Shown here: one piece after another, positions 27,919-30,037 of the stretch
Layout of the letters: each line of letters begins with the position of its first letter
Numbering within the stretch: the stretch's first letter is position 1
Assembly: GCA_028824295.1 (NCBI GenBank)
Contig: JAPPED010000003.1
Coordinates: 62,001-126,000 of the forward strand
Reading direction: 5' to 3'
Length of the DNA stretch: 64,000 bases
Source: Rhodospirillales bacterium
Lineage (GTDB): Bacteria > Pseudomonadota > Alphaproteobacteria > TMED109
The notes under the pieces: generated by a model
Databases searched by the model: none
Told to the model about the DNA's origin: nothing
Seen by the model: the letters and a program-made list of their open reading frames with translations, nothing else
Program-made: the position numbers and the translations under genes

Positions 27919-27995
27919 TGGGGCGAGTGATGGGACTTGAACCCACGACCCCCGGTACCACAAACCGGTGCTCTAACCACTGAGCTACACTCGCC
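27919..27995 (-). tRNA. tRNA-His (anticodon GTG), CCA encoded
   Basis: On the minus strand the cloverleaf folds completely. An 8-bp acceptor (GGCGAGTG/CACTCGCC) includes the G-1:C73 pair special to tRNA-His. The D arm is GCTC/GAGC, the anticodon stem CCGGT/ACCGG with loop TTGTGGT (anticodon GTG), and the T arm GTGGG/CCCAT with loop TTCAAGT. The genomic CCA is at 27919-27921. It stands alone between the FOXRED1-like gene and the lipoprotein gene. Confidence 0.97.
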
Positions 27996-28121: not shown

Positions 28122-28670
28122 CTACTGGGCGACCAGCAACGCGCGGGCGCGGGTGAAGATTCGGTCTTCGAGCGCCGTTTCGGTCTCGGCGGCCACAGTC
28201 GCCGCTTGCGTCGTGCCGTCGTCGGCGCGCAACCGCCGGTACACGCGGACGCGCAAATTGCTGACTGCCAATTCGCGACCGGTAATCCGGGCCACGAATT
28301 TCATCTCTTCACTCGGGGCGTCGGCTAGCTCCGTCCATTCGGTGATGATGACCCCGCCAACCGAATCGACGGAATCCAGCGGCGCGAAATCGAGAATCTC
28401 GAGCGCGGCCTGCCAGAGCTGGGGATTGATCGCCATCTGCACGCCCGCTGCCGACTCGCCGTCGCCACCGAAGAGTTCGGAAAGGGAGAACCCGGGAGTG
28501 ATTCCCTGTGCCTCCAGCTGTTCACGCCTCGCACGATCGGCCGGCGTCTCTGGAGGGGGAGTGATTTCGACCGGGCCACTGCAGGCGGTGAACGCGATGG
28601 GGCCCAACCCGGCACACAACAGCGGCAGGACAAGCGTGGCGGCGAGGGCGCGGAAGGAGGGACAGGACAC
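28122..28670 (-). CDS. DUF3576-like lipoprotein
   Basis: 182 residues. An N-terminal signal sequence (LAATLVLPLLCAGLGPIAFTAC) ends in a near-lipobox FTAC, so it is probably an outer-membrane or periplasmic lipoprotein. The body (GVQMAINPQLWQAALEILDF, GGVIITEW, MKFVARITGRELAVSNLRVRVYRR) matches the pattern of DUF3576 proteins common in alphaproteobacteria. Relatives often sit upstream of leuS and lptE, which are not seen here. Function unknown; an envelope role is inferred from the family and the signal. Confidence 0.8.
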   Translation of the reverse strand: MSCPSFRALAATLVLPLLCAGLGPIAFTACSGPVEITPPPETPADRARREQLEAQGITPGFSLSELFGGDGESAAGVQMAINPQLWQAALEILDFAPLDSVDSVGGVIITEWTELADAPSEEMKFVARITGRELAVSNLRVRVYRRLRADDGTTQAATVAAETETALEDRIFTRARALLVAQ

Positions 28671-28799
28671 GTTGGTCGGCGCTCCACGGCATGGGTGGCC
28701 CGGAAGGGCAAGATCGTCATCCGCTTATATCACACGACCGCACACTGCGACCTGTCAGCCGTATGCTCGCGGGTCAGTTCGTCCGAAGGAGGTCGCCGC

Positions 28800-29891
28800 A
28801 TGGATCCCATGATGTTGCCCTATCGCGAGTACCGGCCCGCCGTCAGGCCGCTGCTTCGATGCGGCCCGGGGGCTGTCGTCATTGGTCGGACCGAGGTGGG
28901 TGACTCCGTGGATCTCGGGCGGCTCGCTGTGTTGCGCGGCGACGGCGAACGAATCTCCATCGGTCCCAGATGCTGGTTGGGCGCCAGGGCCACGGTGCAT
29001 ATCGCCGATGACGAACACGGCAGCGTGGTGGGAGCCGACGTCGTCGTGGGCCGCTATGCATTGGTGCACGGCTGCACACTGGCCGATCACGTCGTGGTCG
29101 GCGACGCTGCGGTGGTGATGGACCGGGCGGAGGTCGGCACCGGCGCGGTCATTGCGGCCGGTGCCTTGGTGCCGCCTGGAAAGAAGCTGGCGGGCAGTTG
29201 GCTGTACGCGGGGAGTCCGGCCCGTCCCGTCCGGACACTGGCCAGCGGTGAGGTCGATCGGATGGCTGTGGCGGTGCGGCGCTCAGAGCCCTCGCCGGCG
29301 ACGGCCACCGACGATGACCCGCTGCCGCCGCTGGAAGACACGGCATTTCGGCCACCTAGGGCAAGCGGACCATTGCATGGAAGTAACGGGTCATCGCCGG
29401 TGATTCCTGCCAGCGCCTACGTTGCGCCCACGGCGGCGGTGTGGGGCGACGTGCGTCTCGGCGAGAGTGCGAGCGTGTGGTTTTCCACTGCCATGCGTGC
29501 TGGTCGGGGGCGCATTGTGGTTGGCGACCGGACCAACGTGCAGGACAATTCCTTTGTCGACGTAGCCGAGATCGGCGCGTCGGCCGAGATCGGGAACGAC
29601 GTGACGATCGGCCACAACGTGCGGCTTGAAGCCTGCCGGATCGGCGACCGGTGCTTGGTCGGCATGGGGGCCACGGTCTGCACCGGCGTGACCATCGAAG
29701 ATGATGCACTGGTTGGCGCCCGGGCGTGGGTGGCGCCGGGCACGGTCGTGCGCGCAGGCTGGATTTGGGCCGGCCGGCCCGCCAAGCCGTTCCGGGAAGT
29801 TCGCCCCGAAGAGGTGGAATACTTCAGGCAGGGCAAGGAGGTCTACGAGGGGTACGCGCGCGACTATCAGGCCGGTGGATGTGAAGAGTGA
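28800..29891 (+). CDS. Tandem gamma-carbonic-anhydrase-like fusion (two left-handed beta-helix domains)
   Basis: 363 residues, twice the usual length of this family. Residues about 18-150 and 200-355 are each a CaiE/YrdA-type gamma-CA domain, joined by a Pro/Asp/Ser-rich linker. By alignment to Cam/YrdA the three zinc-ligand positions read His67, Arg85, His90 in domain 1 and Asp254, His272, Glu277 in domain 2, so each domain lacks what the other keeps. RGD (46-48) is present only in domain 1 and NVQD (246-249) only in domain 2. The ATG at 28800 follows a strong AAGGAGGT (28786-28793). The next gene overlaps its stop. CO2 hydration is not assured. Confidence 0.9.
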   Translation: MDPMMLPYREYRPAVRPLLRCGPGAVVIGRTEVGDSVDLGRLAVLRGDGERISIGPRCWLGARATVHIADDEHGSVVGADVVVGRYALVHGCTLADHVVVGDAAVVMDRAEVGTGAVIAAGALVPPGKKLAGSWLYAGSPARPVRTLASGEVDRMAVAVRRSEPSPATATDDDPLPPLEDTAFRPPRASGPLHGSNGSSPVIPASAYVAPTAAVWGDVRLGESASVWFSTAMRAGRGRIVVGDRTNVQDNSFVDVAEIGASAEIGNDVTIGHNVRLEACRIGDRCLVGMGATVCTGVTIEDDALVGARAWVAPGTVVRAGWIWAGRPAKPFREVRPEEVEYFRQGKEVYEGYARDYQAGGCEE

Positions 29892-30037
29892 TCCTCAAGT
29901 TCGCGGTCGCGATCTTGGCGGTGCTGCTGTTGCGGCTCATATTTCCCGCGCTGGTGCGGGGCGTGCGCCGGACCCTCCTGGTAATGGCCATTGCCGTCGT
30001 GGTCTTCGGGGCGGTGGTGTGGCTCACTGCCGGGTAA
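29888..30037 (+). CDS. 49-residue small membrane protein
   Basis: The GTG at 29888 overlaps the stop of the gamma-CA fusion as GTGA, giving a 49-codon frame ending in TAA at 30035-30037. The product has two hydrophobic stretches (FAVAILAVLLLRLIFPALV and LLVMAIAVVVFGAVVWLTAG) separated by RGVRRT, the pattern of a two-pass hairpin. The next gene starts 46 bases later. I recognise no family. Translational coupling suggests it works with, or anchors, the gamma-CA-like protein; this is inference. Confidence 0.65.
   Translation: MILKFAVAILAVLLLRLIFPALVRGVRRTLLVMAIAVVVFGAVVWLTAG

Follow-up and report, generated by a model that had tools for sequence, protein, structure and literature searches.

A tandem gamma-carbonic anhydrase fusion from a Rhodospirillales bacterium with active-site residues divided between its two domains

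The fusion gene and its site residues

The 64,000-nucleotide stretch of Rhodospirillales bacterium DNA analyzed here (contig JAPPED010000003.1, positions 62,001 to 126,000; hereafter the window) carries a gene that encodes two gamma-carbonic anhydrase (gamma-CA) domains, D1 and D2, in a single chain. Gamma-CAs are the textbook case of an active site lying between identical chains. In the fusion each domain has kept the residues of one side of such a site and lost those of the other, and a composite single site at the D1/D2 contact is well supported by comparison with homologous proteins. The features of the gene, all on the plus strand, are listed below with the equivalent residues of the gamma-CA Cam and the evidence in brackets.

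28786..28793, plus strand: Shine-Dalgarno-like AAGGAGGT, 6 nucleotides 5' of the ATG of the fusion (sequence)
28800..29891, plus strand: tandem gamma-CA fusion gene, 363 amino acids and stop (frame, profile matches, homologous fusions)
28800..29249, plus strand: D1, residues about 1-150, supplying face b with R46, D48, H67 and H90 (alignments, model, face conservation)
28935..28943, plus strand: R46-G-D48, Cam R59-G60-D61, with R46 and D48 invariant across fusions (alignments)
28998..29000, plus strand: His67, Cam H81, invariant in D1 (alignments)
29052..29054, plus strand: Arg85 at the Cam H117 position, R/E/Q/H across fusions (alignment)
29067..29069, plus strand: His90, Cam H122, invariant in D1 (alignments)
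29250..29384, plus strand: inter-domain linker, residues 151-195, a short helix (151-160) and then a low-confidence stretch (AlphaFold2 model)
29385..29879, plus strand: D2, residues 196-360, supplying face a with N246, Q248, D249 and H272, and a C-terminal helix with Y349 (alignments, model, face conservation)
29535..29546, plus strand: N246-V-Q248-D249, Cam N73-V-Q75-D76, with N246, Q248 and D249 invariant in D2 (alignments)
29559..29561, plus strand: Asp254 at the Cam H81 position, D/S/V/I/L/N/F/R in D2 (alignments)
29613..29615, plus strand: His272, Cam H117, invariant in D2 (alignments)
29628..29630, plus strand: Glu277 at the Cam H122 position, E/D/A/G in D2 (alignments)
29844..29846, plus strand: Tyr349 in the C-terminal helix, carried by every D2 and by 99% of single-domain gamma-CAs, and without equivalent in D1 (alignment)

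The reading frame (28800-29888, stop codon 29889-29891) translates into 363 residues with no internal stop, and the product consists of two hexapeptide domains (PF00132 match). Against the NF050158 profile, "gamma carbonic anhydrase", D1 alone scored 92.8 bits, D2 alone 118.7 and the whole chain 206.5, all below the curated cut-off of 250 bits for equivalog membership. The fusion is the one gamma-CA match in the genome of the window (3.0 Mb, 98% complete).

The ligand columns were set by aligning both domains with 97 single-domain matches. This placed H67 and D254, R85 and H272, and H90 and E277 in the columns of Cam H81, H117 and H122, respectively, and the assignments made for D1 and D2 agreed at all eight columns checked. 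The ligands that a first-pass annotation had named from the sequence (H67, R85 and H90 in D1; D254, H272 and E277 in D2) thus lie in the correct columns of the single-domain alignment. Its observation that D1 keeps RGD and D2 keeps NVQD was likewise borne out by translation and alignment, which also showed that NVQD is lost in D1 (WLGA) and RGD in D2 (RAG). Neither domain holds all three histidines (H81, H117 and H122) within one unit; the set is complete only across D1 and D2, and the fusion is therefore a variant and not a standard member of the gamma-CAs. The second-shell residues R59, D61, N73, Q75 and D76 are similarly distributed, R and D being found in D1 and N, Q and D in D2.

Conservation of residues and faces among fusions

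The fusion was present in all seven genomes of the genus of the window. In the rest of the family, full-length fusions with 32-42% identity occurred in three genera (g2, g4 and g7), paired half-matches in one frame in two more (g5 and g8) and a contig-end fragment in another (g3). A family of another order (f119) also carries the fusion, with 47-53% identity, and family f67 carries a more divergent one (L149). The alphaproteobacterial set comprised 25 rows from several families, 26 with L149, at about 29-93% identity to the fusion of the window. In the tree all D1 sequences formed one clade (Shimodaira-Hasegawa-like approximate likelihood ratio test, SH-aLRT, 90) and all D2 sequences another (94), suggesting that a single fusion event probably lies behind all the alphaproteobacterial fusions. 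D2 branched near single-domain alphaproteobacterial gamma-CAs.

The composite-site residues were constant in these 26 fusions. Every readable row had R46, D48, H67 and H90 in D1, with the NVQD motif absent and R, E, Q or H at position 85, and N246, Q248, D249, H272 and the C-terminal Tyr in D2. The reciprocal positions of D2 vary, as given above for 254 and 277, and its RGD drifts. All these positions are kept at 87-100% in 91 single-domain gamma-CAs. Fragments cut off by contig ends in three further genomes (L058, L060 and L093/L094) had the same split. Homologous fusions varying freely at the ligand sites would have spoken against a divided site, and the split ligand pattern proved constant instead. 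A compensating salt bridge between Arg85 and Asp254 or Glu277 at the dead interface was also considered, and rejected because position 85 does not covary with 254 or 277.

The division was also seen when the sites were not picked beforehand. Of the columns at least 85% conserved in the 91 single-domain gamma-CAs, R/D/H/H are retained by D1 and lost by D2, whereas W, N, Q, D, H and the C-terminal Tyr are lost by D1 and retained by D2 (W227, N, Q, D, H, Y349). In a 24-row alignment (A1), 33 of the 363 window columns were invariant (31 by the stricter count of the aligner), including all eight composite-site residues and none of the eight reciprocal ones. The hypergeometric probability of recovering eight of eight is 2e-9, a value that ignores the relatedness of the rows.

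Two close relatives (L006 and L007) have His at position 85, so that D1 reads H-H-H at the ligand positions and D2 reads D-H-A; these are the only three-His domains among the alphaproteobacterial fusions. A single-domain gamma-CA (L097, genome G416) has Glu at the H122 position, like Glu277 of the window, and keeps the other two His; three such single-domain proteins were counted.

The conservation extends over whole faces of the domains. An AlphaFold2 model built with 24 sequences gave a mean predicted local distance difference test (pLDDT) score of 90.4 and a predicted template modelling (pTM) score of 0.90 over the whole two-domain chain. The left-handed beta-helix of hexapeptide repeats with a C-terminal helix was found by PF00132, by AlphaFold2 and by Foldseek alignment to gamma-CA structures. 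Foldseek against the PDB aligned about one domain at a time (template modelling, TM, score to query about 0.45), which does not in itself show the domain arrangement. The pTM of 0.90, reached with a linker of lower confidence between the two domains, suggests that their relative placement is predicted confidently.

Faces were assigned from strand order and from the published statement that in Cam one monomer supplies H81 and H122 and the next supplies H117, with which the assignment agrees. In D1 numbering, face a has the positions equivalent to N59, Q61 and D62, together with R85, on or beside AlphaFold2 strands 59-60 and 82-83; face b has R46, D48, H67 and H90 on strands 44-48, 65-67 and 88-90; D2 follows the same numbering plus 187. 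The Cam equivalents are N73, Q75, D76 and H117 on face a and R59, D61, H81 and H122 on face b, and face c is the exposed one. Mean column entropies of faces a, b and c were 1.69, 0.77 and 1.77 bits in D1 and 0.72, 1.68 and 1.68 bits in D2. The contrast between faces a and b had P of about 0.00005 in both domains, persisted with 12 representatives below 70% identity and without the catalytic columns (P<0.001), and was also found on rungs away from the site (P<0.003). In single-domain gamma-CAs, on the other hand, faces a and b are both more conserved than c (1.29, 1.50 and 2.04 bits). Since face b of D1 (D1b) and face a of D2 (D2a) are conserved and D1a and D2b drift like face c, these results suggest that one interface, D1b:D2a, has been kept and the other two released.

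Fusions with one-sided loss occur in other phyla as well. In Solirubrobacterales (L042 and L100) D1 reads R-D-N-Q-D-(L/T)-H-(V/R) over the site residues and D2 reads H-D-H, with N73 and Q75 replaced, a mirror image of the split of the window in which the two domains have exchanged roles. The identity of these two proteins by face was mirrored too, at 27/36 on a and 21/37 on b in D1, and 30/37 on b and 21/36 on a in D2; their N-terminal stretch resembles a signal sequence. In the Chloroflexota set (L014, L040 and L101-L104), L014, L040 and L102 have H-V-H in D1 and an intact D2, L101 has H-V-H in D1 and Y-H-H in D2, and L103 (genome G661, same class as L014) is a tandem fusion with all His ligands in both domains. 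In every pair compared, the Chloroflexota D1 was better conserved on face b than on face a. The Solirubrobacterales and Chloroflexota fusions stood apart from the alphaproteobacterial ones in the tree, although the Solirubrobacterales branches are long and their exact place is unsure. The sequences therefore support at least three fusions, each with decay of one side. If real, the apparent series would run from an intact tandem (L103) through partial loss (L014, L101) to the full split of the window family and Solirubrobacterales. In genome G692, of the same class as L014, two adjacent unfused gamma-CA genes (L110) both have all three His; this gene pair could resemble a pre-fusion stage.

Genome context and carbonic anhydrase complement

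The neighboring features of the fusion gene are the following.

29888..30037, plus strand: hydrophobic (membrane-type) protein of 49 amino acids, starting at a GTG that overlaps the fusion stop (GTGA), a candidate partner or tether (sequence, homologues)
28122-28670, minus strand: divergent neighbor, DUF3576 (PF12100), with a lipoprotein-like N terminus (Pfam match)
27919-27994, minus strand: tRNA-His (GTG anticodon), upstream of the fusion (tRNA call)

In three genera a hydrophobic protein of 49-52 amino acids overlaps (GTGA/ATGA) or directly follows (TAATG) the fusion, and among close relatives it shows more synonymous than non-synonymous codon changes. It had no Pfam match, was not found downstream of the fusion in other genera, and a search of 143 sampled genomes of the class gave no copy elsewhere. 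That it tethers or partners the fusion is speculation. No complex I genes were found among the immediate neighbors, which are the DUF3576 gene, the gene for the 49-amino-acid protein and an Iso_dh dehydrogenase.

Each of the seven genomes of the genus encodes a beta-CA as well, and the family gave no alpha-CA match. One genome of the genus (G025) has an additional ordinary single-domain gamma-CA (L074) with all ligands present. Several other relatives, among them G005 (97% complete) and G006 (91%), had no beta- or alpha-CA match and no second gamma-CA match, and their sole carbonic anhydrase match was the fusion. As the only one detected in several streamlined relatives, its activity should matter to the cell.

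Proposed architecture and comparison with known gamma-carbonic anhydrases

Reciprocal conservation, its extension over whole faces and its recurrence in separate fusions are properties of the sequences themselves, and with them we consider it very probable that the protein is a gamma-class carbonic anhydrase, nearest to the single-domain alphaproteobacterial gamma-CAs, whose two fused domains have undergone reciprocal loss, leaving one composite site per chain and probably no closed trimer. D1 would show only the face with the equivalents of R59, D61, H81 and H122, and D2 only the face with those of N73, Q75, D76 and H117 and the Tyr of the C-terminal helix. In line with the model, D1 and D2 of one chain would pack intramolecularly, side by side, like two neighbors in the Cam trimer. 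From the residues retained we infer that one divalent metal per chain would be bound between H67 and H90 of D1 and H272 of D2, surrounded by N246, Q248, D249, Y349, R46 and D48, and the likely reaction would be CO2 + H2O to bicarbonate + H+. Selection would no longer act on the two remaining interfaces of the ancestral trimer, so that a closed trimer is probably not needed for function and the chain is possibly monomeric.

Several points weigh against this architecture. The hydrophobic content of the drifting faces (0.49 and 0.48) is near that of single-domain interfaces (0.50 and 0.53), although the drifting faces are more polar, and hydrophobic drifting faces make some burial in an oligomer possible. 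The D1b:D2a contact itself is deduced from strand order, conservation and pTM, not seen directly. In L006 and L007, D1 reads H-H-H and a D1/D1 site would be complete too. The AlphaFold2 model of a Chloroflexota fusion (5 sequences, pLDDT 54.6) was too poor and was discarded, and some CamH-type gamma-CAs show no activity (PMC7447434). The hydrophobicity, together with the trimeric state described for bacterial gamma-CAs (PMC12854811, PMC5746736) and with the plant heterotrimer that has one zinc site as a direct precedent, speaks for a closed heterotypic trimer of domains, for example rings of D1-D1-D2 and D1-D2-D2 drawn from three chains, each ring with a single live site. We regard such a ring as rather unlikely. 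It would constrain three interfaces and only one appears selected, since the entropy of D1a and D2b equals that of the exposed face c, even on rungs distant from the site, and position 85 lacks the covariation with 254 and 277 that would mark a conserved second contact. The first-pass annotation had proposed that a D1/D2 interface rebuilds one complete site while the others are dead, giving an obligately heterotypic trimer like that of the plant CA and CA-like (CAL) proteins of complex I. Its first part is strongly supported by a split that is invariant in 26 fusions and recurs in other phyla; the obligate trimer finds no support in faces that drift as freely as c, with apparently a single interface under selection.

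A pseudo-enzyme or scaffold that binds bicarbonate or holds a membrane partner such as the 49-amino-acid protein, its conserved residues being structural only, seems improbable. Complex I of Tetrahymena does have a zinc-free gamma-CA heterotrimer as a scaffold (PMC10060162), and three genera have the small hydrophobic protein overlapping or next to the fusion; on the other hand, other genera lack this protein beside the fusion, several near-complete genomes have no detected carbonic anhydrase other than the fusion, and a scaffold would have no reason to keep three His and N/Q/D/Y on one interface and to lose exactly the reciprocal set. Asp, His and Glu can in principle bind a metal, and the window and L004 have D-H-E, so that each domain might form its own homotypic trimer with a separate function, D2 with a D/H/E carboxylate-type metal site and D1 with H/R/H. 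This is very unlikely, given that the reciprocal positions (254 and 277 in D2, 85 in D1) vary and that it needs both faces conserved where one per domain is. Chance or phylogenetic inertia, that is, two degenerate hexapeptide domains complementary by accident, would gain from the apparent single origin of the alphaproteobacterial fusions, which makes their rows non-independent. We nevertheless find it scarcely credible, for the pattern is still intact at about 29% identity, with most columns changed, and appears again in separate fusions of two other phyla, once with swapped domain roles.

A composite-site chain without a closed trimer would be a natural case of reciprocal loss after duplication fixing a heterotypic interface in a bacterial protein outside complex I, and with a single-chain, one-site bacterial form the number of interfaces required by a gamma-CA could be addressed simply. 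The prototype gamma-CA is active only as a trimer according to a review (PMC5746736), and as late as 2026 bacterial gamma-CAs were described as homotrimers, as opposed to the mitochondrial heterotrimer (PMC12854811). In the open-access library searched, which omits most subscription papers, no account of a bacterial tandem gamma-CA was found, in agreement with the first-pass annotation, which knew of no such described fusion. We hold it about as likely as not that bacterial gamma-CA fusion, repeated at least three times with complementary decay, has given an apparently undescribed trimer-free, single-chain, single-site enzyme.

The fusion resembles single-domain bacterial gamma-CAs (CamH, YrdA, PaaY-like; 3ixc, 3r3r, 3tio; NF050158) in structure (Foldseek TM to target up to 0.95), in the common motif set and its spacing, and in the position of D2 near the alphaproteobacterial single-domain clade. 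It differs in having two domains per chain with half the motif set each, and in the window a homotypic site of either domain would be incomplete. The Solirubrobacterales and Chloroflexota proteins share its tandem gamma-CA structure, one-sided ligand loss and face-specific conservation, but in the Chloroflexota fusions D2 keeps all or most ligands and L103 keeps both His sets.

Like Cam of Methanosarcina thermophila, in which one monomer contributes H81 and H122 and its neighbor H117 (PMC4519908), the fusion would have its metal site between two units; unlike Cam, which has a proton-shuttle glutamate and forms a homotrimer with three sites, it would have one site and two dead faces. The fusion was also considered as an ancestor of mitochondrial CAL and rejected on a comparison of the ligand residues: D1 lacks only the H117 equivalent, and the pattern of CAL2 differs. 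The nearest precedent for a single composite site is the gamma-CA/CAL heterotrimer of plant mitochondrial complex I, which is heterotypic and has one complete site (PMC7447434, PMC7567890). In Vigna CAL2 two of the three His are absent (Ala147 and Arg152, apparently the H117 and H122 positions by spacing; PMC7447434), whereas in the fusion D1 lacks one His and D2 the other two. The plant units are, moreover, separate chains from separate genes in a closed trimer bound to complex I, whereas both units of the fusion are carried in one chain.
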